This document shows, in pieces, positions 12,515 through 46,444 of a stretch of DNA of 46,970 nucleotides. The notes beneath the pieces were generated by a model. That model was given only the letters and a program-made list of their open reading frames with translations. It did no database searches and was not told the origin of the DNA. Position 1 is the first letter of the stretch. Each line of letters opens with the position of its first letter. The translations under genes were made by a program, and so were the position numbers. This DNA is from a virus: positions 1 to 46,970 of the IMG/VR virus record IMGVR_UViG_3300032046_000049. One strand, given 5' to 3'.

Positions 12515-13057
12515 ATGCGCAAACTAAGAGAAAGAAATGTAATCATAAACGTTAACGGTTCCAAATACCCAAAGGAATTGGTCGTTAAACAATATCAATT
12601 ACCAAACTCAAAAATACAACACTTTATTACAACCAAAGAAGTAAGTTCTGTAACTGTGTTTGCTTTAACAAAGGATGAGAAAGTCTATCTTGTAAAACAG
12701 TTTAGACCAGGATCAGAAAAGTATGATTTGGAACTTCCTGGTGGAGCTATCAATCCAGGTGAAGATCATTCTGTTGCAGCAGCAAGAGAGCTACAGGAAG
12801 AAACTGGTTTGGTTGCTGGAAGTGTACATCATTTGGGAAGTATTCCATATAGTCCATATTCCAGTGGAATAAAGCATATGTACATGGCTCTAAACTGTAC
12901 TCCAACTGGTAAACTCAAGTTAGATAGCAATGAGTTTCTTGAAGTAAAGATCTATGATTTAGATGACGTGAAAAAACTCATAAAGAGCGCAAAGATCCGA
13001 GGATTTGATTGCGTCTATATGGGTTTAGACCGTTTAGCTGAATTGGCCAAGTTTTAA
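12515..13057 (+). CDS. Nudix hydrolase (ADP-ribose pyrophosphatase-like)
   Basis: Residues 77-99 match the full Nudix box G-x5-E-x7-R-E-U-x-E-E-x-G-U, written GAINPGEDHSVAAARELQEE then TGL; Glu92, Glu95 and Glu96 would bind the divalent metal. The 180-residue length and an N-terminal strand domain before VTVFALTKDEKVYLVKQFRP are typical of ADP-ribose pyrophosphatase-type members, which cleave nucleoside diphosphate derivatives to nucleoside monophosphate plus a phosphorylated partner. The substrate cannot be read from sequence; other nucleotide sugars, NADH or capped RNA ends are possible. The stop overlaps the convergent end of the chaperone extension frame by four bases. No strong ribosome site is visible, so translation may be coupled to the preceding gene. 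Confidence 0.9.
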   Translation: MRKLRERNVIINVNGSKYPKELVVKQYQLPNSKIQHFITTKEVSSVTVFALTKDEKVYLVKQFRPGSEKYDLELPGGAINPGEDHSVAAARELQEETGLVAGSVHHLGSIPYSPYSSGIKHMYMALNCTPTGKLKLDSNEFLEVKIYDLDDVKKLIKSAKIRGFDCVYMGLDRLAELAKF

Positions 13058-18484: not shown

Positions 18485-18489
18485 AGCTA

Positions 18490-21533: not shown

Positions 21534-24500
21534 TCAGCTGAAGCTGACACCACTTCTTGTAATGATAAAATCTATTGCTATAAATTCTACTGCTCTTGTT
21601 GGCTTAAGAATAATTCGGCAATTCATCTTATGATTATTTACATCTGTATCGGTGTTATTTGAACTGTCACAAGTTACCTTGAAGAACTCGACGCCCTTTC
21701 TAAGTTGAACTGTGCTCAGTATTGGGTTAATTTGATTTACAAGTTGCTCTCTAAGAGCTGGAGTGATGTTCTCCCAAATAATTCTGTTACCAACGTCAAT
21801 TACTTGACGCTTAACATCATTCAACATTCTTACTACGTTTACACTTCCAAGGGCTGAACCAGCTTGCTCAAGAGTGTTCTGTGAGAAGATTACGTAACCT
21901 TCATTTGGGAATTTGATGATTGGATTGATGTGTACGGAATATAGACGTTCACGTTCTGGCTGACTTACTCTTGTAGTAGTCAAAGTAACGAAGTCTAGGG
22001 ATGCACGGTTAAATCCTGCTGGAGCAAACCATGGGAAAGAAACCTTGTCATTGAAACTTAGAGCAGAGACTACAGCAACTGATGCTGGGACTGTTACTCT
22101 TCTGTTATTGACAGTATCGTCCATTGTAATGTCTGGGAAGTATGAGCCACAATATTCGTTATTCAAAGCTCTGCTTTCATGATTGTCCGCAGTCTTGTTT
22201 GGATCTGTGTATACTCCAGTTTGTCCGTCAAAGATTCTCTCACCATTTGCATCATAGTATGGAACGTCCATAGCATAATATGCAAGAGCAAAGTCTTTTA
22301 TCTTGTCAGCAAAATAATCTGTGACAAGTGGTTCTCTTTGTCCTGGTACTGCCAAAACGTTGATGTTTGAAGCAATTGGATCTGTGATAATGTCTGCTGC
22401 TGCACGGTATGAGTTAATTGTGTTGTTTGTTACGCCCAAACCATTTTGGTTATATGCAAAGCCTGGAGAAACGAATGAACCATTTACGTTACCGTAGATT
22501 CCATCAGTTCTTGCATCTGTTGAAGAAGCTCTGTCATTCATGACTGCTGCGTTCTTATCCAAGATGTTTACACCATCAAAACCACCTTGTAAAATGGTTG
22601 TGAATTTAGCATATTGACTAAAGGCATTGAATACTGCTGCACTAGAACCATTGTTCAACAATGAAGCAAGGGTAACTCTTTCGGTTGATGTAACAGAGTC
22701 AACGATGTTGTAGTTAGAAACGTCTGGCTTACCATTTCTGATATAGGCTGCTTCCTTCATGTGAATATCAGATGAAGAAGTTAGATCAGACAAGCTTCCG
22801 TTACCAAGAGCAACACGAGCAAGTGTGAACTTATGATTATGTAAGGTGTCCTTGTTTGAAGAACCAGTTACAACCGCATCAAGTTGACTGATACCAGAGA
22901 ACTTAGTATAAGCCAAAGCCAAACTGTTTTGTTCGTTAAATGGATTTGGGTTAAGGATGTTCTTGTTTCTTTCAAGCTTAACACCCCAGTAATATCTTGC
23001 ATCAACAATCTCAAAGCCACCTGGAGCGCCTTGTAGTTTACCAGCGTCAGTAGATACAGCTCCTCTTGTTACCTTGAATCTGAAAGGCATTGGAGGGACT
23101 ACAGAGGCCAAGATATGACCACTTGCTGCGCCAGTGCTAGCTGCAAGTCTAGAGATTGCACTAAAGCCAGTTGAACCAGAGTTATCTTGTAGTCTTGAGT
23201 TTGTGCTAAGAACTTCAAATCCTCTGTGACCGAATGGTACAGACTCTTCTGGGATCAATTTCTTCTCTACTGCTTCATTCATTACAACACGAATATATTT
23301 TGACTTGTTTTGGAACTTGCCTTCAACAATCAATCTTCTATCCGCTAGGTCTTCTGAATCGAAGTTAAAGTATGCTTTTCTATCTCCAACAACTTTACCG
23401 ATGTAACTATCAGATTCTGGATCTAAGGTTAGGTTGTTAAATTGTTCTAGAATCTTTGGGCTTGTATCAACGTCATCAAAGGCTCTTACAGCCAAATTGA
23501 ATGTTGCATACTTGTAGCGTGGGTTTGCAGACTTCTTAATGTTTAGAATCGAAACCTTTACTTTACTGTTTGGATAAACACCATCATCAACTGATTCAAT
23601 ATGGAATAGATCATATTCTGCCTTACCAAATGGTTGGCTGATGAAAGATGGAGTCTTAGCAGTCTTATATCTTGTATCAAAACGACCAAAAGTGTTTAGG
23701 AATGGAAGGCTAGTGTCACCAGAGGTTGTACTTGTGTTTGCAGAACCTGAAGCAATAACAACGCTATCTGTACCAACATTTACTTTAGCCATTTCCGCAT
23801 CAACAGCATAATCAGCATAAACAACGTGTTTCTCTGTTGAGAACTTCTCTGGGTCTGTGTTTAGAATCTTTGTAAAGTAGTTTGCGTCAGAAGGATCTAG
23901 TGAAGCAGTAAGAATTCTGATTCCAGACTTACCTTCAGAAGATGCATAGCTGCTACCATCAGAGCTTGAGATAACAAGTTTGAAATAACGGCTTGTTGGA
24001 TCAACAGTAGCAGCGTCATCAATTGTTGTAGCCCAGTTTTCATTGTAGCTTAGAACTTGTAGTCTTGTTCCGTTAGATGCAAAGATTACACCTCTTACAA
24101 GGAATGATTCTAGAGAACTTGTTACAAACACGCTATCGTTGTTTGTGAAACCTAGTTGTGAATAAGCTTCAGAACCAGTTACAGTATGTCTAGCCAATAG
24201 GAATTGAACAGCACCTTGAGCACCGCCATGGGCAGCACTATCTGGAACTAGGGATGCACTGATTTTGAAACCAGCATTCTTTACAACACCCTGTTGACGA
24301 GTAGCATCCATATCAGCAGCAGTGGTATTACCACCAGCGCCAAGAACTCTTACGAAGGTTAATCCGTTTTTGTTTGCTAAATGTTTATCCGCAGCATATG
24401 GAGCGACGAATCTTGGATTTAAATCACCAAATTTTGTTACGAAATCTGCAAATGAACCAACTGTACGTGGTACGAATGCTGGGCCTCTCTCTGATGTACC

Positions 24501-24599
24501 AACCAAACCTGCAGGAATACCTACTGGTTCTTGTGTTTGTTGTGATAAATCAATTTCTCTGTCAAAATACGCTGGGAAGTTAAATACTGGAGAAGTCAT
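21534..24599 (-). CDS. Contractile tail sheath protein, first copy
   Basis: 1021 residues. Signatures match the sheath family: GIPAGLVGTSERGPAFVPRT near the N-terminus, PASVAVVSALSFNDKVSFPW and FAPAGFNRASLDFV in the core, and INPILSTVQLRKGVEFFKVT ... CRIILKPTRAVEFIAIDFII at the end. It surrounds the tube as hexameric rings and contracts on infection. GAGG lies upstream of ATG at 24599, and a candidate promoter motif (24646-24654) is 46 bases before the start. It is the first of two tandem paralogues; which is the main sheath cannot be told from sequence. Confidence 0.92.
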   Translation of the reverse strand: MTSPVFNFPAYFDREIDLSQQTQEPVGIPAGLVGTSERGPAFVPRTVGSFADFVTKFGDLNPRFVAPYAADKHLANKNGLTFVRVLGAGGNTTAADMDATRQQGVVKNAGFKISASLVPDSAAHGGAQGAVQFLLARHTVTGSEAYSQLGFTNNDSVFVTSSLESFLVRGVIFASNGTRLQVLSYNENWATTIDDAATVDPTSRYFKLVISSSDGSSYASSEGKSGIRILTASLDPSDANYFTKILNTDPEKFSTEKHVVYADYAVDAEMAKVNVGTDSVVIASGSANTSTTSGDTSLPFLNTFGRFDTRYKTAKTPSFISQPFGKAEYDLFHIESVDDGVYPNSKVKVSILNIKKSANPRYKYATFNLAVRAFDDVDTSPKILEQFNNLTLDPESDSYIGKVVGDRKAYFNFDSEDLADRRLIVEGKFQNKSKYIRVVMNEAVEKKLIPEESVPFGHRGFEVLSTNSRLQDNSGSTGFSAISRLAASTGAASGHILASVVPPMPFRFKVTRGAVSTDAGKLQGAPGGFEIVDARYYWGVKLERNKNILNPNPFNEQNSLALAYTKFSGISQLDAVVTGSSNKDTLHNHKFTLARVALGNGSLSDLTSSSDIHMKEAAYIRNGKPDVSNYNIVDSVTSTERVTLASLLNNGSSAAVFNAFSQYAKFTTILQGGFDGVNILDKNAAVMNDRASSTDARTDGIYGNVNGSFVSPGFAYNQNGLGVTNNTINSYRAAADIITDPIASNINVLAVPGQREPLVTDYFADKIKDFALAYYAMDVPYYDANGERIFDGQTGVYTDPNKTADNHESRALNNEYCGSYFPDITMDDTVNNRRVTVPASVAVVSALSFNDKVSFPWFAPAGFNRASLDFVTLTTTRVSQPERERLYSVHINPIIKFPNEGYVIFSQNTLEQAGSALGSVNVVRMLNDVKRQVIDVGNRIIWENITPALREQLVNQINPILSTVQLRKGVEFFKVTCDSSNNTDTDVNNHKMNCRIILKPTRAVEFIAIDFIITRSGVSFS

Positions 24600-25928: not shown

Positions 25929-27314
25929 TTAGTCTCGTTTGGCGTCCGCAAGTTTGTGTTTTGCAAAAACAAATTCCTTACGTACTTTCTCATATTCTTG
26001 GTATAATTGTTTTTGTTTATCAGAAATTGCCGGTTCATTTGCTAATTGTCGTCGGCGGTCTTCAGCATTTAATAAATCTGCCAATTCTTCCATTCGTGTG
26101 CGAAGGGCATTTTTATTATCTTCTAATGCCAAAATATTCTCTCCATCTACCTGATTTATATCTTGTTTAGTTGCTTCTGTTGGAGTATTACCAAAATAAT
26201 GTTTATCAATGACTTCGTTAGTAGCACCATAATCATATATCACAACTCTTCCGTCAGCAGTCTTTCCCCAATGACTTGGAATAGTAACATCTGGTGTGTA
26301 CAGATCCGCATTCTTTTTGGCCATGATTGCCATTTTTGTAAACGGGGCTACTCGATCTTTTGTATTTTGGTTGATTGGATTGGAGAAAAATTGAGCAAAT
26401 TTTTGTTGTGGGTATAAATTAAGATGAAAATTGATTGATCTCACGTAATCATCAATACCTGTTAATTCATTAAACTCTTCATATGTCTCTATTGGTCTAA
26501 CAAGCTCTACCAAAAGCCAAGTATTGTTTGGATCATAATCATAAATCTTGTTGATTAGTTTGTTGGTTTTTGGATCTGTATAAACTTCTAATTCTGCTTT
26601 GTTTTGAGCAATACCTTTTGTGTTACGAGAAACTTTAAGTGCTCTACTACTATCAACCAGATATACATTTCTTGATGACCCTTGACCCAACATTTCGGTG
26701 TTTGTTTCTAAGAAAGCTTGTCTTTGTGCTGGATGGAACTTCTTAAATTCCTCCATGTTTATAAACTTCTTTTCTGTCATCATTGATTCATCAATGGTTG
26801 CAGGAGTTGGTTGATCTTTTTCAACGTACTTCTTTAGTTTAGTATAATATTGTGGATCTTCTACTAAGTGTGCCAAAGCTATCTTTGCAGTGTTGATAAG
26901 ATTACTATGGGTAACATCAAGTCTTGGATGTACTGCGCCATGCTCTAGTTCAACCCACATTCCCTTATAGAACTCTTTGAAGTTAACCTTCTTCCAGTTA
27001 ACATTCAATATGTTTCCTATGCCACGAGCCTTCTGTGGGGTCAAGGAAAGCTTCTTCTTTAGGTCTACGGCTTGTGGTGACTCCTCATCCTTTGTGTGGT
27101 CTGCAGAGGCTAATAGAGGCATTCCTCCAACACTACCATAACCATAGTAACCACCATAAAAACCATCAGCACGACTACCATATGGATTTTTAAAATCACC
27201 CTTACCAGCAACCTGCATAGCACTAGTTTTAGATCCTGCAGCACCTGGGAAGAATTCCTTAATTGCCTTATCAAGTTCTTCCTTGATGATATCTTTTAGT
27301 TTATTTTTACTCAT
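25929..27314 (-). CDS. DUF5661 domain fused to kinase-fold domain, with helical tag
   Basis: I choose ATG 27314 (461 residues), behind GTGGA, over GTG four codons upstream; the start overlaps the gp14-like gene by eight bases. Layout: N-terminal tag MSKNKLKDIIKEELDKAIKE; a Gly/Tyr-rich linker (about 38-65); a DUF5661-like segment, GMWVELEHGAVHPRLDVTHS then AKIALAHLVEDPQYYTKLKK (118-162); and a kinase-like domain with LGQGSSRNVYLV (209-220), Lys227 in ALKVSR, ADLYTPD (Asp337) and VVIYDYG (Asp361). The catalytic Asn expected five residues after Asp337 is Asp342, so activity is uncertain. A charged coiled tail ends the protein. It is a paralogue of the 14340-15065 protein in the kinase-like part. 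Confidence 0.65.
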   Translation of the reverse strand: MSKNKLKDIIKEELDKAIKEFFPGAAGSKTSAMQVAGKGDFKNPYGSRADGFYGGYYGYGSVGGMPLLASADHTKDEESPQAVDLKKKLSLTPQKARGIGNILNVNWKKVNFKEFYKGMWVELEHGAVHPRLDVTHSNLINTAKIALAHLVEDPQYYTKLKKYVEKDQPTPATIDESMMTEKKFINMEEFKKFHPAQRQAFLETNTEMLGQGSSRNVYLVDSSRALKVSRNTKGIAQNKAELEVYTDPKTNKLINKIYDYDPNNTWLLVELVRPIETYEEFNELTGIDDYVRSINFHLNLYPQQKFAQFFSNPINQNTKDRVAPFTKMAIMAKKNADLYTPDVTIPSHWGKTADGRVVIYDYGATNEVIDKHYFGNTPTEATKQDINQVDGENILALEDNKNALRTRMEELADLLNAEDRRRQLANEPAISDKQKQLYQEYEKVRKEFVFAKHKLADAKRD

Positions 27315-27999
27315 GATAGAATCCACTTCCTTCAGGATCTATGGCAACATTTTCTGTTTCATCAACATCAACCTTCCTTGGGCCTTCTCCAAGAGAGATA
27401 TCTGCCATATCGTCTTTTAATCTTTTTCTAATTTGTCTAGTATCGTTAGTTGCGCCTTGTTCTGTTTCATCAAGACCTCTTTGTTGGATAAACTTCTTTT
27501 CAACGGTACTGTCAGAGAACTTCTTACTTGTCTCCAACAACTCTTTAAATGTATCCAAATCAAATTCACCAGTTCTTGCTAGTTTAGCAGTAACCTTAGT
27601 TGCCTTATCATATTCTGCTTGACCATAGATGTTGTCTAAATCTATAGCCTGTAATATTTCATATACCTCATGACCATACACAAAGAAATCGCCGGCAAAC
27701 ACTTCCAAACCCTTGTCTATCAAATCTCTCGATTGAATAAACAACTCAATAGAAAGTTCTCCGTCAACACCAAACTTACCAAAGTTTTGTGCTCTTGTTG
27801 GTTGACCAGCAAGTACATCTACTTTGATTGGGTTTTCAAACACCTTCTCAATTGCTTCATCATAAACTGAATGAACCTTGGTATATAACACCGATACTGG
27901 ATAATAGATTACATATTGACCCACAACATCCTTAACAAACTCTTTTGTTATGTCTGCTATGAATTGTTGTTCTCTTGGTCCTATGAATAATCTTGACAT
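27307..27999 (-). CDS. Neck protein (gp14-like)
   Basis: The 230-residue protein has DVVGQYVIYYPVSVLYTKVH followed by SVYDEAIEKVFENPIKVDVL near the N-terminus, then KFGVDGELSIELFIQSRDLI, AGDFFVYGHEVYEILQAIDL and YGQAEYDKATKVTAKLAR. This order (YYxP, a disease-free acidic helix, an FGxxxxxxxxF strand pair, then GDxxxxxxxxxEI) resembles T4-type neck protein gp14. The C-terminal 80 residues are charged and variable. It lies directly after the gp13-like gene, matching the T4 order 13-14. The neck joins the portal vertex to the tail. Confidence 0.55.
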   Translation of the reverse strand: MSRLFIGPREQQFIADITKEFVKDVVGQYVIYYPVSVLYTKVHSVYDEAIEKVFENPIKVDVLAGQPTRAQNFGKFGVDGELSIELFIQSRDLIDKGLEVFAGDFFVYGHEVYEILQAIDLDNIYGQAEYDKATKVTAKLARTGEFDLDTFKELLETSKKFSDSTVEKKFIQQRGLDETEQGATNDTRQIRKRLKDDMADISLGEGPRKVDVDETENVAIDPEGSGFYHE

Positions 28000-29378: not shown

Positions 29379-29915
29379 ATGCCTACAAAAGAACTTTATA
29401 TATTTGACTTTGATGATACCCTTGTTTCTGATTGCGCCAACATTTATGTTCATCATAGATCAAGATCAACAATATCCCTTGACATCCAAGCCTACTATAA
29501 CTTTATGAATGGGATATATGATGAAAATGAAGTGCTTGACATAACAGAGTTTGATTCTGTCAAAAATCCAAAGGTTTATGTTGAAATGGTTGACAAACTT
29601 AAATCAGTCCTTGATAAAGCAGTCATTCTTACAGCCAGAAGATATTCAGAGCCCGTAGCTGATTATATGTTGACAACTCTTGGAATAGACATTCCTGTAT
29701 ATGCAATTGGAGTATATGTGAATGTTTTGCCAACCAAAAAAGATAGTGCAAACAGAAAAAGGATTTGGATAGAACAACAGATCATAGATCATGGTTATGA
29801 TTATGTAGAGTTTTGGGATGATGCTAAAGTAAACATTGAAGAAGCAGAAAAACTAAAGGTCACGTTTCCCAACGTGACCTTCGTATTACATCATGTTTGT
29901 CATAAATCAGATTAG
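29379..29915 (+). CDS. HAD-superfamily phosphatase
   Basis: 178 residues with HAD motifs in order: YIFDFDDTL (motif I, Asp10 nucleophile and Asp12), AVILTARR (motif II, Thr85), a lysine/arginine in the following SANRKRIWIEQQI segment (motif III position) and EFWDDAKVN (motif IV, paired Asp). The family hydrolyses phosphate from nucleotides, polynucleotide 3' ends or small metabolites. In phages, comparable stand-alone HADs include 5'-nucleotidases and the phosphatase half of polynucleotide kinase; the substrate is not evident here. It is an island transcribed against the late genes, with no clear ribosome site, and its last codons contain a leftward terminator-like hairpin. Confidence 0.8.
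   Translation: MPTKELYIFDFDDTLVSDCANIYVHHRSRSTISLDIQAYYNFMNGIYDENEVLDITEFDSVKNPKVYVEMVDKLKSVLDKAVILTARRYSEPVADYMLTTLGIDIPVYAIGVYVNVLPTKKDSANRKRIWIEQQIIDHGYDYVEFWDDAKVNIEEAEKLKVTFPNVTFVLHHVCHKSD
29848..29881 (-). terminator. Intrinsic terminator-like hairpin for leftward transcripts
   Basis: An 11-bp perfect stem (AAGGTCACGTT / AACGTGACCTT) with a four-base loop lies at 29856-29881. On the minus strand it is followed by TTTAGTTTTT. It is 31 bases after the stop of the 90-residue gene and lies inside the convergent HAD coding sequence, so it encodes LKVTFPNVTF on the other strand. The plus-strand side has no T-tract. Confidence 0.7.
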
Positions 29916-30184
29916 TTTTTCCAAACCATTCCAGGATCTTCATCAACCTCATTCATATTATGTTCAAATATCACATACACATCATCATTCTTGTATGTCA
30001 ATTCACTCACTGCTTGTTTAGCTACTTCTAAAGAAGTAAAGATACCAACGGTAACCCCTCCTTCAAAATCAACTACCTTAGACAGAGAGAACACTTTTGG
30101 GCCTTGGCGCATATGTCCTGTCACTTCTTCTTTAACAATCGTTTCTATAATGTTTTTTATCTTATTTTTAGGGTTATCACTCAT
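29912..30184 (-). CDS. Small tagged protein, 90 aa
   Basis: Begins MSDNPKNKIKNIIETIVKEE, a version of the recurring amphipathic tag, followed by a small alpha/beta-looking domain (PKVFSLSKVVDFEGGVTVGI, FTSLEVAKQAVSELTYKNDD, VYVIFEHNM). The body, with its VGIFTSLEVAKQAVSEL strand-helix, resembles a small ferredoxin-like fold but I recognise no family. Its stop overlaps the convergent HAD stop by four bases. It is the last gene before the strong hairpin at 29848-29881. Confidence 0.65.
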   Translation of the reverse strand: MSDNPKNKIKNIIETIVKEEVTGHMRQGPKVFSLSKVVDFEGGVTVGIFTSLEVAKQAVSELTYKNDDVYVIFEHNMNEVDEDPGMVWKN

Positions 30185-31321: not shown

Positions 31322-31891
31322 TTATGAACCAAGACCCCATGGACGTTTGCTTGGATCTCCTCCATACATAGCCCGCTCTGTTGCCTTTGCATCACGGACA
31401 GCTTTCTCTTCAGGAGATAACAAATTTTCTTTATCTTTTGTTTTTTGTTTTTCTAATTCCCAAGCATCTTCTTTGGCTTTCCAAATTGGTAATTGTTCTT
31501 GTTCCATTTGTGTACCAGATATGGCATTATTTGGATCAAGAAGACCTGCTTGTACGTCTTTTATGGCCTGATTGAAATAAAAAGCAACAAAACCATTTTC
31601 TGAAGTTGACCAAGGTACGGTTGTAGTATTGGCACGTAAATCCTTAAACCATTGTCGTTGTTGTTCTTGAGGCATTTTAAGGTGAGCGATGATTTCATCC
31701 CACATTTTGCCAACGACCCCTTTTCCTTTGAATCCAGATAACCTATTATTTAACATGTTACCATTTATGGTTCTTTCAAAAGATTGTTGAGCCTTACTTT
31801 TGGTTTCTGATGAAGTTTGTGGTTCTCCAATAGCAGAACCAACTTCTTCTTTGATGATTTTCTCTAATAGTTGTTTTGATGTAAGTTTCAT
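31322..31891 (-). CDS. Unknown tagged protein, 189 aa
   Basis: N-terminus MKLTSKQLLEKIIKEEVGSA is the recurring tag, followed by a Ser/Gln-rich linker, a folded-looking centre (GVVGKMWDEIIAHLKMPQEQ, PWSTSENGFVAFYFNQAIKD) and a charged, lysine/glutamate-rich C-terminus ending in SKRPWGLGS. I know no family. It follows the 131-residue gene by eight bases. Its position between capsid and neck genes suggests a head-associated protein. Confidence 0.6.
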   Translation of the reverse strand: MKLTSKQLLEKIIKEEVGSAIGEPQTSSETKSKAQQSFERTINGNMLNNRLSGFKGKGVVGKMWDEIIAHLKMPQEQQRQWFKDLRANTTTVPWSTSENGFVAFYFNQAIKDVQAGLLDPNNAISGTQMEQEQLPIWKAKEDAWELEKQKTKDKENLLSPEEKAVRDAKATERAMYGGDPSKRPWGLGS

Positions 31892-33291: not shown

Positions 33292-33338
33292 CCCATGTCT
33301 AGTGGGGGCACTTTAGCCTATATAATGCCCATGTCTAG
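33292..33338. repeat. Short direct repeat at capsid 3' end (33292-33302, 33328-33338)
   Basis: CCCATGTCTAG occurs twice, 36 bases apart. One copy encodes the last residues of the capsid gene (LDMG on the minus strand); the other is in the gap before the GIY-YIG gene and continues with a similar AT-rich stretch. It looks like a partial copy of the gene end. Confidence 0.6.
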
Positions 33339-35234
33339 GATTGTTACGGTGCCGTAGAAGTCACTTCTGACCATCTTCTTACCGTATCTTGTCATGACGC
33401 CCTTACGTGGAGTGAAATCCTCTTGAGCGTAGATGACTGGAGTCAAGATAAGTGGTACGTATGGTGCGTAGATATATCCTGATTCTAGGAAGGTGTTGCC
33501 CTTTAGACCGATTAGGATCTTGTTGGCTGGGAAGTATGGATCCTTGTAAACAGTGTATCTGTTGTTAAGGGTGCCAACGGTCTCTGCGCCGATGGTCATT
33601 CCATCCTTGACTTGTCCGTCACCGTCGATGCGGTAGCTTGACTTGTAAGCATTCAAATGCTCTAGGATTGTGCAAACTTCTGGTGAAGTTACGATGAAGT
33701 TACCTGAGCCACGAAGGGTCTTCTTGTGGATTTGGTTAGCTACGTCGGTGATGGTCTCAAGTAGTGTCTGATACCAGTGTTGCGCATCAGCAAAGATCAT
33801 TGGACCTGGTGAAAGTGTGCTGGACATAAGAGCTTCTTGGCCAGTGAACTTGTTAACCATCTTACCTGGGGCTCTGGACCAGAATAGGTTAGCTGCGTTT
33901 GCTTGTGTAAGCAAGTCGTTCAAGATTTCTCTGTCGATATCGAGAGTAATAGCCTCGGAAAGGATATTTGTCAATTCAACTTCTACGTCGATTGAGTAGA
34001 ATGCAGTTAGATCTTGAGCCATTTCTGGTGACCACTTTGCACGCAACTTACGGGTAGCAGCAGTAACTGAGGTGCTCTCAATTCTGATGTCAACTTCTGG
34101 GATTCTTGGTGAAGAATCGACTGCGAAGTCTGATTCAAATGATGGGATGGTCAAGGTTGAACCATCGCTGTTTACGCTTAGCGCATCAGAGATAGCTGCG
34201 GAACCTGTGATCTGTGTACCAGCAGTTGTGCTTGGAGCTGGAGCTGTACCAGCGTTTGCAACACCGACAACGAATTGTACGTGTGAGCCGTTAAGTGGGT
34301 CTGGAGTAAAGACTGAACCGTTCCAGTTACCACGCTTGTTCATTCTACGTAGGTTTAGTACGCCACGACCAGCTTGGTACTTCTCGCCCCATTCAGCAGC
34401 ACTGTTTGCAACTGCGCCGAAGCCAGAGATTGCAATTTGCTCGATGTTGGAAAGATCTGCACCATTGATGTTTGTGGTGATTTCTGACGCAGCGACGTGG
34501 ATGAAACAGTAATCCATAAGATTAGCAGTTAGATCGTTTTCAACTCTTGTGTCATAGTCAACGAAACGTGCGTTGTAGCCTGTGAAGTCATCAGCAGTCT
34601 TGACTGTACCTGTTGAGGTCCAAACTGAACCAGTTGCCCAGTAACCAGTTGCACCAGCAGCGACTTGGATTACCTTGGTCTGCTTGTGAACCTTTGAGTA
34701 GCCGGAACCGACTAGATCGTATTGACCACCTGTTGCAAGTGATCCTGAACGTACACCAGCGCCTCTTGGGTTGTTGTACAATGAATCTTGTGAGGTGTAT
34801 GTGCTTGGGTTAACTACTGAAGTTGTTGAGTAGTTGTTTGCTGCTGAGGAAGCATCGCCACCAACGGATGAACCGTAGGTATAATCAAGATAGAACAATA
34901 GACCAGCTGGCAAGCTCATTGGTTGTACGGATACAACTTCATTTGCAATTAGACCGGCGAACACTCTACGAACGATTGGGAATGCGACGTTTGTGAAACC
35001 AGCAACCTTACCGCTTGGGGAAAGACCTGCGCCACCCAATGATAGGGCGTTTGATTCACGTAGTAGCTCCGCTGCTTGGTTCTCAAGCAAACGTGCCATG
35101 TTATCCTTATTAAAGCCACGAAGGCCTTCTAGCAAGCCGGTTTGATCCCATTTCTTGACTAGTCGAGGAGCGTCGTCACCAAGTGATCTACGTTGTGCTC
35201 CTTCAGCTAACTGTGATAATGTAAATTGTTTCAT
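33318..35234 (-). CDS. Major capsid protein (gp23-like)
   Basis: The 638-residue protein starts MKQFTLSQLAEGAQRRS and has the hallmark LLENQAAELLRESNALSLGG (about 49-68) followed by FTNVAFPIVRRVFAGLIANE, VVSVQPMSLPAGLLFYLDY. C-terminal FIVTSPEVCTILEHL and YKDPYFPANKILIGLKG are also typical of T4-type HK97-fold capsid proteins. A gp21-type cleavage site (L/I-x-E) is visible as LRE at residues 58-60, so about 60 residues would be removed during maturation. AGGAG lies upstream of ATG at 35234. Codon usage is richer in GC than neighbouring genes, as expected for the most expressed protein. Confidence 0.95.
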   Translation of the reverse strand: MKQFTLSQLAEGAQRRSLGDDAPRLVKKWDQTGLLEGLRGFNKDNMARLLENQAAELLRESNALSLGGAGLSPSGKVAGFTNVAFPIVRRVFAGLIANEVVSVQPMSLPAGLLFYLDYTYGSSVGGDASSAANNYSTTSVVNPSTYTSQDSLYNNPRGAGVRSGSLATGGQYDLVGSGYSKVHKQTKVIQVAAGATGYWATGSVWTSTGTVKTADDFTGYNARFVDYDTRVENDLTANLMDYCFIHVAASEITTNINGADLSNIEQIAISGFGAVANSAAEWGEKYQAGRGVLNLRRMNKRGNWNGSVFTPDPLNGSHVQFVVGVANAGTAPAPSTTAGTQITGSAAISDALSVNSDGSTLTIPSFESDFAVDSSPRIPEVDIRIESTSVTAATRKLRAKWSPEMAQDLTAFYSIDVEVELTNILSEAITLDIDREILNDLLTQANAANLFWSRAPGKMVNKFTGQEALMSSTLSPGPMIFADAQHWYQTLLETITDVANQIHKKTLRGSGNFIVTSPEVCTILEHLNAYKSSYRIDGDGQVKDGMTIGAETVGTLNNRYTVYKDPYFPANKILIGLKGNTFLESGYIYAPYVPLILTPVIYAQEDFTPRKGVMTRYGKKMVRSDFYGTVTILDMGII

Positions 35235-38137: not shown

Positions 38138-38614
38138 TCATTTCTTAGCAAAAGCAACCTGTGCCCAATGCTTCAAATTACCATCTGGTGTCATCTCCTG
38201 TAGAGATTCTACTTCTTCTGCCAATCTTTCATTGGTATAACTTTCCATAACAACAGTACCAGGAACACCCTTCTCATGTTGCTTTTGATAGGTTGTCATA
38301 GCTGTGTCTGCTAGAATATCTGCAAACAAACTACTATCACCACCGACAGAAACAACATTAGCCAAATGATTGATTTGTTCTACAAGTCCTGCATTAGCAA
38401 GTTGTTCTCTTGTTCTTTGTTGTGTTGTATAGTCTGTTGGATTTTGAAGTTGTTTTGTTTTGGTTCCCTCAGAAGATGGTAATCTTCTTGTTTGGGTTGC
38501 TGGAGCAGAATTAACTGATTCTTTTAGAGATGAAAGTATTTTTTCTTCTCTTAGAATTTCAATCAAACATTCCTTTAGAATACCCTTTAATTGACTTTTA
38601 GTTAATCTTGCCAT
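38138..38614 (-). CDS. Unknown tagged head-region protein, 158 aa
   Basis: The N-terminus, LTKSQLKGILKECLIEILRE, is a clear copy of the recurrent tag, followed by a Thr/Gln-rich linker and a helical second half (REQLANAGLVEQINHLANVV, GGDSSLFADILADTAMTTYQ) ending in LKHWAQVAFAKK. No family is recognised. The gene starts two bases after the prohead protease stop, so it is co-translated with it; a link with prohead assembly is therefore likely. Confidence 0.6.
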   Translation of the reverse strand: MARLTKSQLKGILKECLIEILREEKILSSLKESVNSAPATQTRRLPSSEGTKTKQLQNPTDYTTQQRTREQLANAGLVEQINHLANVVSVGGDSSLFADILADTAMTTYQKQHEKGVPGTVVMESYTNERLAEEVESLQEMTPDGNLKHWAQVAFAKK

Positions 38615-38616
38615 GA

Positions 38617-39237
38617 TTATTTATCCCCACGAATCTTTTTATGGAATGCTAAAGTTTCATTTGCTGCCATAGAGACTCTCTGTTGTCTTGAAAAAATATC
38701 CTTCAATTCTTTTCTAGAATATTCTTTTGCTTCTTTCATCATCCATGCACCAGGTGTACTCGGCTCAGATACGAAATCCCAACAGATGAAATAAAGATCA
38801 TCCTGTACTATATCGCCTTCTCTTTGTTCAGATACAGAACCAAGAGCTCTACTTGAAATTCCAACTTTAATGTTTGCCTTGATAAGGCTTTCTAAAATAT
38901 TACCCATTGGAGTATTTAAAATCTCTACCTTACCCTTAACAGCTCCATCTGGTTCCATCCAGATATCTGTTATAACGTGAGATACGTTTTTTAAGTTGAC
39001 AACTGGTTCATCTGCGTGATCCAATTCTCCAACTGCACGACGTTCTTTAACCAGAACATTATATGCCTCAATCTGTGGCTCTAAGATTGAACGTGGATAG
39101 ATTCTACCATTTTGGTTTACTGTATCTGCTCTTTGTAAGATACCAGTTACAACAAGAGGTCCACCCTCTTTCTGTATCTTCTTGACCTCTTCATGGTCAT
39201 AGGTAAAATCATTAAGTTCTTTTAATAGCTTGACCAT
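38617..39237 (-). CDS. Prohead core protease (gp21-like)
   Basis: The 206-residue protein carries the herpesvirus-like serine protease signature of T4 gp21: VTGILQRADTVNQNGRIYPR, AVGELDHADEPVV with His74, NIKVGISSRALGSV with Ser128 or Ser129, and CWDFVSEPSTPGAWM. The enzyme matures the prohead by cleaving scaffold, capsid and internal proteins after L/I-x-E. It lies between the portal and the scaffold as in T4. Its ATG overlaps the previous stop by one base (TAATG), so translation is coupled. Confidence 0.93.
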   Translation of the reverse strand: MVKLLKELNDFTYDHEEVKKIQKEGGPLVVTGILQRADTVNQNGRIYPRSILEPQIEAYNVLVKERRAVGELDHADEPVVNLKNVSHVITDIWMEPDGAVKGKVEILNTPMGNILESLIKANIKVGISSRALGSVSEQREGDIVQDDLYFICWDFVSEPSTPGAWMMKEAKEYSRKELKDIFSRQQRVSMAANETLAFHKKIRGDK

Positions 39238-40168: not shown

Positions 40169-42304
40169 TTATTCATCTTCATTAAAGACATCCGATAAGG
40201 ACTTTTCTTTAATTTTTTCAATCACTATTTCATTATTTTTTGAAGTTGGTTTACTATTAGCAATTTCAAGAATTAATTCATCACCATCTTTTTCTACAGA
40301 GATGTCATCAAAATCTAATGAATCAATTGCCTCATTGATAACAAGCTTTTTGTTCTTTGGATGATGTTCAATGTAGTATTTCAGATTTTTTAGAACAGCC
40401 TTCATGTGGTTGTTGACAGCTGGTTCAATTTGAATCAAATATTTCTGATCTTGTTTATTCATGTCCTTCAAAGTTCTAACTTTGAGATCAGCATAATCAA
40501 TACCTTCTGTCTTTTGCCCAAACACATCTTTGGTGTATTTGTTTTTCTGACTTAGCATTGCATTCATGTCTGGCATTGCTGTATTCTGTCTACCAGTACC
40601 TTCACCCTCACGTCTAACTCTATTTCTTCTATGTCTTGTTAGGAATGGAGTAGCCTTGATTGGAGTTTTATTTGTATCAAGATCAACAACATAAGCTTGT
40701 CCATCAGAATCATACTGTCTGAACTTAGACAACACAAGATCGGCACGAGCACCAGGATCTTGTTGTATTGGTTCTTCTGGAGGTGTTCTTGGAACATTTG
40801 CTCCAGGGACATCATACATGGATGGATCAAAAATATCTGTAGTCTTTGGAGATGACTTTTCATCAGGTAAAACCAACTCCAAATCATCCAACTCTTTTTC
40901 TCTAAGTTTATCTTTTCTCAAACCTTTTTCAATAGACGAAATTTCTTCATTTGTCAATTCCAGAATGTTCTTTTGAATCCAATGTTCATCAACAAGCTTT
41001 GTCTCTTTTGCAGTTCCAGCTGTATCAAACTTAACACTCCATAATTCAAGCTTCTGCTGTAAAGCAACAGAACTTGGATTAGAAAGTTTAAGTTCAAAAT
41101 CAATCAAATCTGGTCCATCAAATCCCTTGGTAAATAAATGAATCATTGCCAACTTGTTTAACTCAGCAATGATAATTTTCTGGAATGATTGAATGGTTCT
41201 AGAAAATCTAATATCCATCTGAGCCAAGGATGCCTTTGCAGAAAGGTTTTCATCAAAGTTCATGTATGGCTTTGGAACCTTCAAGGCAGCGAATAACTTA
41301 CGTTGAATATATTCTACGTCTTCTGTAGCAGAAACGTGTTGACCACCAGAGAGTGTATCAATCTTTGTACCAGATTGACCACCACGGATTGGAATGAAAT
41401 AATCGTCCAACATTGATTGAGCATTGTATCTAAGGTCTTCTTTACCAGTTCTGCTATCCATGTTGCCATTTGATCTAAGTGTAGATTTAACAGCGTCCAT
41501 GTAGCTCTCAACGTCTGTTGGAGGCACGTTACCAACGTCAATATAAAACACTCTTCTTTCAGGAGAACGTACAACACGGTAAGTTAACATAGCATCTTCT
41601 AACATTGTTAGCTGACGCCAAATCTTTCTAGCAGTCTCTAGAATTGAAGTACCATATGGTAAGAACAAGTCATTGCTTAAAATTCTAAAGTGACTGATTT
41701 GCCAGTTTTCAAGATATCTGTTACCACGAGTGATCCACTTAAATCTTACTGCATAAGGATCTTCTGGGTCGAAACCTTCTTCTCTTTCTAACTCACTTAC
41801 TTGAATTGGCATTACATTGATTACACCCTGATCTGGTACAACCTCATTATAAAGAAAGAAATCACCATATTTTACAAGGTTTCTTGTCCATGACTTAAGA
41901 TTGAACTCAATATTCAAAACATCATAAAAGACATCATCAAGAGCACGCTTAATTTCTTGGTTGTTACTGTAGATGTGGAAACACTTACCACGATCATCTC
42001 CACCAACAGCTTCATCAGCATAGATATCAAGGGCTGTAGCTATCTCAGGAGTATACTCCATCAAACTAAACTCTGAGTATCGTGCTAGTCTGTCTAGGAT
42101 GCCGTATGTGCCAAGTACACTGAACGGAGAGTTCTCTCTACCAAATCCAAATGGAAGGTTCTTACCGCCATATGTGCCCCGTATAAGTTGATTGTCACCA
42201 TACTTTGGGTTACTATCATAGCCTTTGATTCTTCTTTGGATAGCTGGTCCAGATCTGAAAAGTCTGGTTAGTCTTTGACTAAAAGATTCTGGTAACTCTG
42301 CCAT
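40169..42304 (-). CDS. Portal protein (gp20-like)
   Basis: 711 residues, somewhat longer than T4 gp20. The N-terminal half has YSEFSLMEYTPEIATALDIY ADEAV, KSWTRNLVKYGDFFLYNEVV and MPIQVSELEREEGFDPEDPY, and the centre has WRQLTMLEDAMLTYRVVRSP ERRVFYIDVG, AVKSTLRSNG and KVPKPYMNFDENLSAKASLAQ in part. These are strong signatures of T4-type portals, which form the dodecameric DNA gate and start head assembly. The C-terminal 200 residues are charged and variable. It is the first head gene after the nucleotidyltransferase fusion. Confidence 0.95.
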   Translation of the reverse strand: MAELPESFSQRLTRLFRSGPAIQRRIKGYDSNPKYGDNQLIRGTYGGKNLPFGFGRENSPFSVLGTYGILDRLARYSEFSLMEYTPEIATALDIYADEAVGGDDRGKCFHIYSNNQEIKRALDDVFYDVLNIEFNLKSWTRNLVKYGDFFLYNEVVPDQGVINVMPIQVSELEREEGFDPEDPYAVRFKWITRGNRYLENWQISHFRILSNDLFLPYGTSILETARKIWRQLTMLEDAMLTYRVVRSPERRVFYIDVGNVPPTDVESYMDAVKSTLRSNGNMDSRTGKEDLRYNAQSMLDDYFIPIRGGQSGTKIDTLSGGQHVSATEDVEYIQRKLFAALKVPKPYMNFDENLSAKASLAQMDIRFSRTIQSFQKIIIAELNKLAMIHLFTKGFDGPDLIDFELKLSNPSSVALQQKLELWSVKFDTAGTAKETKLVDEHWIQKNILELTNEEISSIEKGLRKDKLREKELDDLELVLPDEKSSPKTTDIFDPSMYDVPGANVPRTPPEEPIQQDPGARADLVLSKFRQYDSDGQAYVVDLDTNKTPIKATPFLTRHRRNRVRREGEGTGRQNTAMPDMNAMLSQKNKYTKDVFGQKTEGIDYADLKVRTLKDMNKQDQKYLIQIEPAVNNHMKAVLKNLKYYIEHHPKNKKLVINEAIDSLDFDDISVEKDGDELILEIANSKPTSKNNEIVIEKIKEKSLSDVFNEDE

Positions 42305-42368: not shown

Positions 42369-44909
42369 TCACTTGTTTAAGTTTGTTGGAATCTCTCTTT
42401 TGGATGAGATCAATGCCTTTTTAAACTCATCCATGATTCTGTTTTTATCTTTTTTAAACCTGAATGCTGGGCTTTCAACCAATGCCAATAGTTTTTCATA
42501 CGAATCAATTTGATCCCAAGTATAACCCTTACCAAACAAGATATAAGAAACAATGTCTGGGTCAACAGATATTACCTTTTCATTTACTACTTCAGATTTC
42601 TCTGTTGCGCCCTTTGAAGGAACAATCTTCTTTTTTGCTATCTTCATTCCTGATCTTGGGTTAATCAACAGCCTGTAGAAACTTGTTGGGTCTTTAGGAC
42701 TTGTCCAACGAACCACCGAGAATATTGAAGCGATTAAAATGTTTCTATATGCTGCTTTATATGCACTTTCTTTTGGTGCACCTGATGAAGTCTTCTTCAT
42801 CCAACCAACATTACCAACAAAGAAATCAATTTGAATCAATCCTGGTTCTTTTATCCCATTTCCCTGTGCATCAAGTGCTTCTATTTGTTTTTGATTATTA
42901 TCAATAAGTGGCACAAGAATATGAAATTGTCCCAAACCCTTATTAATCTTATATCTAGCACCGGCACTCTTTAAGAACTGGTCTAATTCTTTCCAAAAGT
43001 CTTTTGTTTCATCAATCCCAAGTTTTGATTCTATCTGTTCCTTACCAATAGCAACATCAAGGTCTCCAACAAATGGTTTAGACTTATTGCCAATGATTTC
43101 AAATTCAATTGGAGCCAATCCTGTTTGTTTCAAGGCGTTATTGACATTTGTCTCTATAAGCTCATTTGGAATTGTAGAGTTTGATTCTGGGAAGACATTT
43201 CCTCCCTCAGTTAAAAAATTATATGCCATTGTTCTTCTTACTGACTCTGGTACAATCCCACGATTTAGAAACTTCTGTCTGATCTCTTCTGGAGATGTTG
43301 TTTGTAACATTGACTTCATCATATTGATCTTACTCTTATCAAGATCAATTGACTTTTCTGTATCTGCTACTTTCTTTGGTATTGTTATTTGACCTTTATT
43401 TACGTTAAAGTCTTCTTCTGCTGTTTGTAGATCTTGTTCCCACATGTTTAATGCGTCAACCAAGTTTGTTGCATCTGTTTTGATCGCCTTTTTAAACTTG
43501 TTTTGTGCATCAATAAGTTTATCTATGAAAGCCCAGTTTAGTTCTTTACGCTTAGTAAACTTATTTTTGTCAACTATCTTTACCAAATCTCCATTTGGTG
43601 CTGCAACCACAAGACCTTCATATTCATCTCCAAATAATGATTTGAATTTGGTTTGTAATGCTTGTTGTTTAGCAGACTTTCCAATCTCTTTTATTGCAGC
43701 AAGTAGTTTTTCCTTTAGATCTTTTTCCTCTTGAGTTCTTGCTGGCTTACTAAGAATGTTCCCATTCTTTTCTATCAGCTTTCTTATGTTCAAGATTAGC
43801 TTGTTGTCAAACTTTAGTTTTGATAGATCTACAGTTGGAACAGCATATACTTTTATGGAAGTATATTTGTTTATCTCAGAAGCAAGGTCTTTCCAAAACT
43901 CTGGTTTGTGAAATGCTTGTTCACCAAACTTTGTCTCGAATATAACAAATATTCCATCACCAATTTTCTTTTCGTCATAAATAACAATATTATGATCATA
44001 TGAAGGGATTGCTTCACCTTCAATTTCAATTGATCCATTAAAAACAAAACCATGTTTCTTCTGGAGTGAAGCTACTATCTCAGCTAATGGCACATTCTTC
44101 AACAACTCAAAATATCTCTTGAAATCTTGCATAAAGAACAAGTTTGATATTTGACTTGAGTCTGTATATGTATTACTCTTTGAGCTGATAAAGAAAGTGT
44201 TGTCTTTCAATCCAAAGGCAAAATAATTTCCATCCACTTTTTCACTAACATGGAACTGTTTATTATCAAGATTCCAAAAACTAAGAAAGTCTAAGAGTTG
44301 ACTTGGTTTTAAATCTTCTATATGTTTGATACCTTCATTCAAAAATATCTGTTTGAGATTATACTTTGATTCTGACAACATCTTTAGGATCTGTTTGCTA
44401 TATTTCTGGAGATATGCTGGAAGTATTGAAGTGAACTGTTTAATGTCGGCTGTTGCTATTGCTTTACGTGCTAGTGTCCCAGACACATTCACATTACCTT
44501 CTCTGTTTATGGGAGAGAATTGAAGTTGGTTGTTAAATAACAGTTTAGATAAGGTCTTTGCTGTTCTCGCATTGTTTATGTTTGAGATATCTGAATCATC
44601 TGCATAAAATGTGTAGGTGTTGTTGTCTTCTGGATCTTCGTTTGCTGTTTCTAACAAATTAAACAAGGCAGTGGTTGGATTTGGTTCATAAGTTACCTTG
44701 ACATTCTTTGGTAAAGCAGGAGCTATTAGTTTATCCCAAATAGGTTTCATCTGATTCCAAGAGATTGGTAATTCACCTTTTCTTTTTCTGTCAGATGTAG
44801 ATACAAACAAATAGACCACTTCATTTTCTGAAGCAGCCTTATTTACCAAGAAGTCATGACCAGCTGTGAATGGTTTGAATCCGCCAGCTATGATTCCTAT
44901 CTTACTCAT
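42369..44909 (-). CDS. Triple nucleotidyltransferase fusion (HIGH-type, ligase-type, pol-beta-type)
   Basis: The start at ATG 44909 gives 846 residues and puts the first strand (MSKIGIIAGGF) at the N-terminus, as in the family; an ATG 11 codons earlier only adds an atypical leader. Domain 1 (1-175) is a cytidylyltransferase/adenylyltransferase: GGFKPFTAGH (9-18, with TxGH in place of HxGH, as in CoaD) and SGTLAR (143-148, the ISSTxxR position). Domain 2 (about 180-460) looks like a covalent nucleotidyltransferase: SEKVDGNYF (motif I, Lys224), IEGEAI (III), GIFVIFE (IIIa), EGLVV (IV, Glu431) and DLVKIV (V-like). Domain 3 (about 555-750) is pol-beta-like: IIGNKSKPFVGDLDVAI with Asp616 and Asp618, and LIQIDFFVG with Asp695. 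It opens the leftward operon before the portal. The substrate and the role are unknown; RNA or DNA end repair and nucleotide-cofactor work are options. Confidence 0.75.
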   Translation of the reverse strand: MSKIGIIAGGFKPFTAGHDFLVNKAASENEVVYLFVSTSDRKRKGELPISWNQMKPIWDKLIAPALPKNVKVTYEPNPTTALFNLLETANEDPEDNNTYTFYADDSDISNINNARTAKTLSKLLFNNQLQFSPINREGNVNVSGTLARKAIATADIKQFTSILPAYLQKYSKQILKMLSESKYNLKQIFLNEGIKHIEDLKPSQLLDFLSFWNLDNKQFHVSEKVDGNYFAFGLKDNTFFISSKSNTYTDSSQISNLFFMQDFKRYFELLKNVPLAEIVASLQKKHGFVFNGSIEIEGEAIPSYDHNIVIYDEKKIGDGIFVIFETKFGEQAFHKPEFWKDLASEINKYTSIKVYAVPTVDLSKLKFDNKLILNIRKLIEKNGNILSKPARTQEEKDLKEKLLAAIKEIGKSAKQQALQTKFKSLFGDEYEGLVVAAPNGDLVKIVDKNKFTKRKELNWAFIDKLIDAQNKFKKAIKTDATNLVDALNMWEQDLQTAEEDFNVNKGQITIPKKVADTEKSIDLDKSKINMMKSMLQTTSPEEIRQKFLNRGIVPESVRRTMAYNFLTEGGNVFPESNSTIPNELIETNVNNALKQTGLAPIEFEIIGNKSKPFVGDLDVAIGKEQIESKLGIDETKDFWKELDQFLKSAGARYKINKGLGQFHILVPLIDNNQKQIEALDAQGNGIKEPGLIQIDFFVGNVGWMKKTSSGAPKESAYKAAYRNILIASIFSVVRWTSPKDPTSFYRLLINPRSGMKIAKKKIVPSKGATEKSEVVNEKVISVDPDIVSYILFGKGYTWDQIDSYEKLLALVESPAFRFKKDKNRIMDEFKKALISSKREIPTNLNK

Positions 44910-45096: not shown

Positions 45097-45435
45097 GTGA
45101 TCCCAAAGAGACTATTATCTATAATCGATTATGTCATCGACTATATTGGTGACAACAGCGATGATTGGTTCAAGATCAAAATGGAGATAATCAACAACTT
45201 TCCACCAAATGAAAGAAGTAGATTTTCAAGAAGACATTACAGTACCAAAAAACATATTCTGAATTCTTTCGATAAGAAAGTAATTACTTATTGGGAAAGC
45301 AAAACTGGAATGAAGCTCTGGGTTGATCCCAACAAGTTACATCCAGATAATTGGACAGCTAAAGGCCGTGGATGTGGTCTGAGGAAATTTAATGAACAAC
45401 GCAGACGACAAAAAGAAGCTGAAACAACTGATTGA
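45097..45435 (+). CDS. Unknown basic protein, 112 aa
   Basis: It starts at GTG 45097, nine bases after AAGG, with an in-frame stop at 45082 leaving no earlier start. The protein is basic and hydrophilic (FPPNERSRFSRRHYSTKKHI, WESKTGMKLWVDPNKLHPDN), ending in an Arg/Gln-rich tail. It is not recognised. The last 44 bases overlap the next gene, whose ribosome site GAGGAAA lies inside it, implying coupled expression. Confidence 0.6.
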   Translation: MIPKRLLSIIDYVIDYIGDNSDDWFKIKMEIINNFPPNERSRFSRRHYSTKKHILNSFDKKVITYWESKTGMKLWVDPNKLHPDNWTAKGRGCGLRKFNEQRRRQKEAETTD

Positions 45436-46444
45436 ATCCATTATCAAGGAATCGCTTGATGAAAATCAAGAAGTGATCAAAGAAGATGGATTAGTTGGTG
45501 CCTTCGTTCAACCATTTACTGACATTGCTAAGACTGCACAATATGGTATGAAGAAACTTGCTACTGTTGCTGGTGGTAACATCTTTCGTATGACTGCTAA
45601 CATCATTGCATTGTCTATACCGTTTATAGCCGCAAAAGAACTTAAAAAGATGGACCGATCCATCACACAAGAGATACAAAAAAGAGTTGGAGCTGTAGAC
45701 AGTCAATATAAAGATGTTTTGGAAAGAAACATGGCTGCATTGCAGGCCCAAGATCTTTCAATTGCTGCGTTTCTCATCAATCCAGCTATGTTTTTAACCG
45801 TAAACACTGGATTAGAGGGAATTAGTGCAACTCTAGGAATTCTTGACGCATTAACCCTTGGTAACTCTACTGTGGCTTCTCTAAAAGGTAAGGTAGATTC
45901 TCTCACTAAGACAAACACTGGTTGGGGTGGATCAAAGGGTGGCTCAGCCGGAGGAGCTGCTGGTGGTGGAGATTATGGTGGAGATTTCGGTGGCGATGGA
46001 ATGGCTGAGTCAAAGAAACCACTCATAAAAGAAGAAGTAGATGTTGAACAGTTAAGAAAGCAAGTTCTTGCTTCTGTTACTGAGTTGATGAAAAAGCCTG
46101 AGATAAGACAGGCAATAAAAAATAATCCTCTTGTTACTGCTATTGAACAAGGAACTTTAGATGTTGTTCTTAACAGAGTAAAACAGTTGATGACTATCAA
46201 CGATTATGATAAACTTAAGTCTTTTATGGGCGCAGATTTTGCTGAGTTTGAAAAAACAAGTTTGGGTAGTTTACCAAAAGGTACAAAACCTGAAGATATA
46301 GCAAAGTTCAAGCAGTCATCTGTTCCTGAGATTAAAAAAGCATATAAACAAATCTATTTGAAATATTTGAATGGTATTTTGGCATCTGCCATAAACCCAC
46401 AAGCTGTTCAACAAGCCATACAGTTTGTAGAGAAATTAGGTTAA
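45392..46444 (+). CDS. Tagged, partly hydrophobic protein, 350 aa (possible internal virion protein)
   Basis: GAGGAAATTTA leads to ATG 45392. The N-terminus has KKKLKQLIESIIKESLDE, the recurring tag. Hydrophobic segments follow at about 66-85 (NIFRMTANIIALSIPFIAAK) and 121-150 (SIAAFLINPAMFLTVNTGLE), then a Gly-rich linker with GGDYGGDFGGDG near 187-200 and a helical C-terminal half (VEQLRKQVLASVTELMKKPE). This combination of a targeting-like tag, membrane-active segments and a flexible linker would fit an internal or ejected protein, but this is inference. No family is recognised. Confidence 0.6.
   Translation: MNNADDKKKLKQLIESIIKESLDENQEVIKEDGLVGAFVQPFTDIAKTAQYGMKKLATVAGGNIFRMTANIIALSIPFIAAKELKKMDRSITQEIQKRVGAVDSQYKDVLERNMAALQAQDLSIAAFLINPAMFLTVNTGLEGISATLGILDALTLGNSTVASLKGKVDSLTKTNTGWGGSKGGSAGGAAGGGDYGGDFGGDGMAESKKPLIKEEVDVEQLRKQVLASVTELMKKPEIRQAIKNNPLVTAIEQGTLDVVLNRVKQLMTINDYDKLKSFMGADFAEFEKTSLGSLPKGTKPEDIAKFKQSSVPEIKKAYKQIYLKYLNGILASAINPQAVQQAIQFVEKLG

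Follow-up and report, generated by a model that had tools for sequence, protein, structure and literature searches.

Phage RNA repair, for instance by Pnkp and Rnl1 of T4, is regarded as the work of enzymes produced after infection. Packaged enzymes have already been described in myoviruses (PMC9503650), and T4 delivers its internal proteins IPI and Alt into the host cell (PMC9026906; PMC9958956; PMC5512222). At their N-termini, the internal proteins of T4 possess targeting leaders about ten residues long, and the T4 protease gp21 cleaves on the C-terminal side of the motif L/I-x-E (PMC9026906). Large multi-enzyme proteins, called polyvalent proteins, are known from both phages and conjugative elements; they presumably enter the host together with the DNA and are split into units, a task proposed for a metallopeptidase, and Pol-beta nucleotidyltransferases (NTases) have been reported among them for conjugative elements only (PMC5512222). 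The association of a Pol-beta superfamily NTase with an RNA ligase is exemplified by RlaP and the phage ATP-grasp RNA ligases, RlaP being predicted to restore nucleotides ahead of ligation (PMC7824862). The fungal tRNA ligase combines end-healing and sealing domains (ligase, kinase and 2H phosphodiesterase) in one chain.

The gene analyzed here belongs to an uncultured T4-like phage represented by a 46,970-base IMG/VR viral record (the window). It is an 846-amino-acid ORF (42369..44909, minus strand; ATG at 44909, stop at 42369, no internal stops) that encodes, in this order, a HIGH-type NTase, a ligase and a Pol-X-like NTase, hereafter the trio. The gene for the T4-type portal protein (40169..42304, minus strand; phrog_213, 2.9e-69) follows downstream on the same strand after a gap of 64 nucleotides; no tRNA genes were found within the window. 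An earlier note, made from the sequence alone, had proposed that three unrelated NTase folds are joined in this frame, and this proposal stands: the motifs lie where it had placed them, and AlphaFold2 models of the domains match PDB structures of three superfamilies. Our preferred reading, to which we assign a probability of roughly 0.55, is that the gene encodes a head polyprotein from which the prohead protease would release three enzymes, and that these would be packaged, delivered into the host and used there as a kit for the processing and sealing of nucleic acid ends, most likely on RNA.

The three core signatures occurred together in 0 of 2000 shuffled sequences of the same composition; individually, the HIGH pattern was never encountered, the Pol-beta pattern was found in 0.05% and ligase motif I in 2% of the shuffles. 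The AlphaFold2 model of the full protein, generated with 30 relatives, has a mean pLDDT of 82.6 and a pTM of 0.48, and because of the latter value it does not define the mutual placement of the domains. The fold Z-scores in the PDB comparison are modest, about 8–9.5; much of the fold assignment rests on the conserved catalytic residues.

Domain 1 (residues 1–175; 44385..44909, minus strand) contains the HIGH motif GGFKPFTAGH (residues 9–18, with TAGH at 15–18; 44856..44885, minus strand) and the SGTLAR motif (residues 143–148; 44466..44483, minus strand). The GH of the former and the S and R of the SGTxxR pattern are retained in five divergent HIGH domains, and the identity of domain 1 to its relatives is 33–46%. 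In the model, residues 3–135 match NTases of the CoaD/NadD type, which, together with the motifs and the Pfam profile Citrate_ly_lig (PF08218), places the domain in the HIGH superfamily; by comparison, it is NadR/NadD-like. In the profile searches, PF08218 matched domain 1 above its cut-off (6.7e-8), RNA_ligase (PF09414) scored below the curated cut-off on the window protein (0.0037; 17.9 bits vs 27), and domain 3 produced no Pfam match.

The core of domain 2 (residues 193–446; 43572..44333, minus strand) contains SEKVDG, which is motif I with the predicted AMP-accepting lysine K224 (44238..44240, minus strand), followed by IEIEGEAI (294–301), FVIFE (321), EGLVV (431) and the motif V lysine K444 (43578..43580, minus strand). 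K224, E431 and K444 are invariant across the 11 aligned ligases; two of these, Lys224 and Glu431, are residues on which the earlier note had staked its assignment, as it had on Asp616, Asp618 and Asp695 of domain 3 (see below). Residues 193–457 match T4 RNA ligase 2 (Z 9.5 over 175 residues, rmsd 4.7) as well as trypanosome REL1 and the Naegleria RNA ligase, which share the ligase fold, motif I (KxDG) and motifs IV and V with the phage domain, so that it falls in the covalent NTase (ligase) superfamily. Unlike these enzymes, it has a helical insertion (about residues 369–418) and a long helical C-terminal region (residues 448–550; 43260..43568, minus strand), with no OB fold after motif V in the AlphaFold2 model, and stays below the PF09414 cut-off, as does its relative in L097 (25.1 bits; cut-off 27). 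Given these scores, we call the domain Rnl2-like and do not place it in the family.

Domain 3 (residues 569–846; 42372..43205, minus strand) starts with GGNVF and includes the motifs GDLDVAI (from 615), with the first two catalytic aspartates D616 and D618 (43056..43064, minus strand), and IQIDFF (from 692), with the third, D695 (42825..42827, minus strand). All three, and K718, are invariant across 26 aligned NTases, so that the loss of active-site residues by which the earlier note would have been refuted was not seen in either alignment. Folded alone, the domain has a pLDDT of 95.1 and a pTM of 0.89, and the matches listed for this model are Pol lambda, beta, mu and TdT, with Z up to 8.5; in the full-length model, residues from about 555 to 805 match Pol lambda and TdT. 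The aspartate triad and the fold match to Pol lambda, Pol beta and TdT identify a member of the Pol-beta superfamily, and the likeness to Pol X itself (Z about 8.5, rmsd 4.4, 13% identity) is of a degree at which other Pol-beta families are also possible. A PDB sequence search with domains 2 and 3 retrieved no credible relative. Identity with RlaP (PF10127) was considered and rejected: none of the members tested matched the Pfam profile, and hhalign against three RlaP sequences gave a probability of 0.1%. The trio thus differs from RlaP in having a third domain without a PF10127 match and, additionally, a HIGH domain and the LxE borders described below.

A tblastn search of phages with the whole protein yielded no matches at 1e-5, searching viral contigs with a pattern built on one sequence was likewise negative, and none of the 106 pattern matches in genome contigs was a relative. 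Relatives of each domain were obtained by profile-guided scans of viral contigs. The HIGH-ligase-NTase order is present in a single ORF in three other contigs (L200, 951 aa; L203, 1439 aa; L204, 1429 aa), and in 13 contigs (L107, L108, L140, L178, L192, L194, L195, L202, L207–L210 and L212) the trio is adjacent or partly fused; L140, for example, encodes a HIGH-ligase protein and then an overlapping NTase gene. The resulting 16 contigs besides the window, each with a HIGH domain, the ligase motif pair and an NTase in one fetched stretch, include some that are closely related to one another, and the divergent ligases among them were identified solely from the patterns of motifs I and IV. Repetition of the three-domain order in independent contigs makes an assembly chimera unlikely. 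Partial combinations are ligase-NTase (L099–L104 and L137), a 2H phosphoesterase-like domain ahead of ligase-NTase (L136), ligase followed by HIGH (L094–L097, L195, L196 and L212) and NTase followed by DUF6267 (L110–L112). When 46 HIGH-bearing contigs, retrieved solely by their HIGH domain and excluding those with the known trio, were searched whole, an NTase was present in 3, each time less than 6 kb from the HIGH gene. Linkage among sequences this divergent argues for a common task. In portal relatives with enough flank, the slot upstream of the portal gene mostly holds another gene, roughly 530 aa in length, and not the trio gene that was sought there.

Pfam, PHROGs, NCBIfam and the literature searched yielded no counterpart that unites the trio with prohead-protease sites at its borders, and the literature search produced nothing on DUF6267 or on phages that pair Pol X with an RNA ligase. 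The earlier statement that no described enzyme has this combination therefore agrees with the searched sources, with the qualification that the combination recurs in unannotated phages.

In the reaction that we envisage, the NTase would replace lost nucleotides and the ligase would seal the strands, the substrate most likely being RNA, such as tRNA cut by a host defense. The joint end processing and sealing suggested in the earlier note gains from the recurrent linkage of the trio and from the 2H-ligase-NTase protein of L136, the nature of the substrate being a matter of inference. The N-terminal domain of L136 matched PF08302, the cyclic phosphodiesterase of fungal tRNA ligase, just below the cut-off (E 1e-4; 22.3 bits, cut-off 23); this counterpart is found in L136 only and not in the window protein, and, unlike the fungal enzyme, the phage proteins belong to another ligase family and no kinase was found. 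RNA is favored over DNA because domain 2 matches RNA ligases first, has no OB domain, and because the 2H domain of L136 suits RNA ends with cyclic phosphates. The same observations count against a DNA repair kit, in which the NTase would fill gaps or extend DNA ends and the ligase would close nicks in phage DNA that is entering the cell or being replicated. That reading draws on the match of domain 3 to the gap-filling DNA polymerases lambda and beta, a likeness that would equally suit DNA gap filling, and on the pairing of Pol X with a ligase, by which base excision repair and end joining operate; nevertheless, we consider it unlikely.

The case for a polyprotein comes from the domain borders, on which the earlier note makes no comment. 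Both junctions contain L-x-E: KQIFLNE^GIKHIEDL, where the leader-like stretch MLSESKYNLKQIFLNE (residues 177–192; 44334..44381, minus strand) ends in the predicted site LNE^G (192/193), and MAYNFLTE^GGNVF, where the leader-like stretch MAYNFLTE (residues 561–568; 43206..43229, minus strand) ends in the predicted site LTE^GG (568/569). The longest low-pLDDT stretches of the full-length model, residues 125–192 and 562–569, coincide with these two junctions. Among 41 NTase relatives, the residue preceding GG (or SG) is Glu in 27 and the start Met in 14, a count that takes in L109 on the assumption that its true start is the Met before GG; in all 27 Glu-type proteins, P3 is L, I, M or V. Eight more members, in which the GG pattern used for the search is absent close to where the domain begins, were left out of this count, two of which by eye show LVE^GGSAF (L192) and LSE^SGIAF (L210). 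After grouping into 18 clusters at <50% identity, [LIMV]xE was found in 14 of the 14 that have upstream sequence, and the motif is kept although P2, P4 and P5 vary. A structural need for Glu is disfavored because the Met-Gly-Gly forms would lack it, and the Glu-or-Met pattern fits Gly-Gly as the mature N-terminus of the NTase. Stand-alone NTase relatives also bear leader peptides, the relative in L106 starts with MKSFVEFITE^GGNVF, and the ligase domain begins after LxE^[GS] in 12 of the 16 listed proteins, the other 4 beginning no more than 11 residues from the frame start. M177 and M561 were weighed as possible internal translation starts, but no clear ribosome-binding site was seen by eye.

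As a sequence motif, the borders thus show L/I-x-E at the mature N-terminus, as in substrates of T4-type prohead proteases. The window encodes a head maturation (prohead) protease (38617..39237, minus strand; phrog_207, 1.2e-46), the proposed processing enzyme, and a major capsid protein (33318..35234, minus strand) in which LxE occurs at residue 11 (QLAE^G) and again at residue 60 (LLRE^S). These two sites are conserved in 28 of 28 related phages, the window included, which agrees with a shared protease specificity.

The alternative of an uncut multifunctional RNA repair enzyme acting in the infected cell, with the LxE motifs incidental, would sit easily with the one continuous ORF, with the recurrence of three-in-one ORFs and with RlaP as a described case of Pol-beta NTases working with RNA ligases (PMC7824862). 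It is improbable in view of the Glu-or-Met rule in all 41 counted NTases, the leaders of the stand-alone relatives, the low-confidence linkers at both borders and the encoding of the components by separate genes in many phages. The single fused enzyme that the earlier note took for the working form is likewise probably wrong, given LxE at both borders and GG as the apparent mature N-terminus of the NTase.

In the polyprotein scenario, the precursor would be synthesized alongside the portal and capsid proteins and enter the prohead, where a gp21-type protease would cut after FLNE192 and FLTE568, releasing the HIGH NTase, the Rnl2-like ligase and the Pol-X-like NTase, the last with the mature N-terminus GGNVF; the freed enzymes would be packaged with the DNA and then delivered into the host. 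The place of the gene in the virion operon, which had appeared odd in the earlier note, has an explanation if the trio protein is packaged in the head. A point against this reading is that no N-terminal targeting leader is evident ahead of the HIGH domain in the window ORF. In phage PA5oct, the ligase and the NTase are near neighbors in a virion-gene cluster, and the stand-alone NTase EST35_0231 is annotated as structural by ESI-MS/MS; the annotation is weak, since the MS-marked list also includes ribonucleotide reductase and thymidylate synthase and may hold contaminants, and the ligase gene is unmarked. Packaging is not universal, because in the isolates Atu_ph07 and Phosso the ligase-NTase pairs lack leaders and lie next to genes for replication.

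The predicted protein resembles the T4 internal proteins IPI-III and Alt in its head-region gene and in short leaders ending in L/I-x-E that are presumably removed by a gp21-type protease. Unlike in those proteins, the predicted cuts would part three enzymes of one precursor, and packaging here is inferred. In contrast to the polyvalent proteins, which are also large and multi-enzyme, the processing sites fit the prohead protease; a zincin metallopeptidase or another polyvalent signature domain was not detected by Pfam in the window protein, which we do not count as a member.

The HIGH domain fits our preferred reading less readily and counts against it; the enzyme would carry out some nucleotidyl transfer, for example in making a cofactor. 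Its NadR/NadD-like character and the occurrence of NAD synthesis genes in phages (PMC7824862) could be taken to mean that the whole protein serves the metabolism of cofactors or nucleotides, with NAD or another dinucleotide as the product of the HIGH domain and the other domains as passengers or regulators. This is very improbable, as the window protein contains no kinase, Nudix or phosphoribosyltransferase partner, and the active sites of the ligase and the NTase are conserved in a pair that is also found without the HIGH domain. Transfer of nucleotides by at least one domain to virion or host proteins instead of nucleic acid, for which the location among head genes and the predicted protein modification by Pol-beta NTases of other conflict systems (PMC5512222) might be cited, is more improbable still, domain 3 resembling, among the matches listed, Pol X polymerases and not the minimal NTases of those systems, and the ligase partner arguing for nucleic acid ends.

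More tentatively, and with somewhat less than even odds, the trio may represent a widespread, unannotated class of head-packaged repair kits, encoded as polyproteins or by neighboring genes and freed by the protease, in which exposure of the Gly-Gly N-terminus perhaps activates the NTase and RNA repair would be ready at DNA entry. If the proposal is true, a particle-borne kit would work before any phage gene expression, against early tRNA cutting or other defenses, and a prohead protease would be seen to split a multi-enzyme precursor. Unannotated NTase and ligase-like families of abundant phages would acquire a testable function and become a source of new ligases and end-adding enzymes.

Several further observations concern leaders and neighbors of the trio genes. 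Six structural-region proteins of the window (31322-31891, 29912-30184, 25929-27326, 38138-38614, 17225-18493 and 45392-46444) carry an amphipathic leader, LKxxIxEEVxxA, which resembles the ligase leaders in L100, L101 and L137 and is possibly a common head-targeting signal. The HIGH NTase of Synechococcus phage S-MS29 (L004:4764-5930) starts with MKKFSAFLSEA, and the resemblance of this start to a T4 capsid targeting leader with its cutting site suggests packaging by analogy. In Flavobacterium phage immuto, gp182 (L003:6536-9259; 907 aa), encoded directly after an MGGNVF NTase gene, joins an N-terminus of weak Pol-beta likeness to a HIGH NTase and to regions that resemble peptidases, and its parts are likewise separated by xxE^[GA]-like motifs. 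In the cultured jumbo phages Phosso (L220:3809-5861) and Atu_ph07 (L221:3037-4834), the ligase adjoins the NTase near primase-helicase genes, and the NTases start with MGGAAF and MGGRAF, respectively.

DUF6267 as a relative of the ligase is suggestive only (hhalign probability 14%). In the cyanomyoviruses P-HM2, S-8S56 and Syn1 (L219, L222 and L223), a KWDG-bearing DUF6267 protein adjoins a HIGH 'cytitidyltransferase', and an NTase-DUF6267 query matched 472 phage records, mostly cyanophages through the DUF6267 part; that the gene preceding DUF6267 in cyanophages is the third NTase was suspected but not supported. PD-(D/E)XK-like motifs, seen by eye and with no Pfam support, are present beside or fused to the trio in L002:4638-5657, L203:8902-10296 and L223:3478-4977. 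Elsewhere in the window, a pair of neighboring tail-sheath-like proteins, each about 1000 aa long (18490-21459 and 21534-24599), match PF17482 just under the cut-off, and a 180-aa ORF on the plus strand (12515-13057), Nudix-like by eye, is embedded among virion genes of the minus strand.
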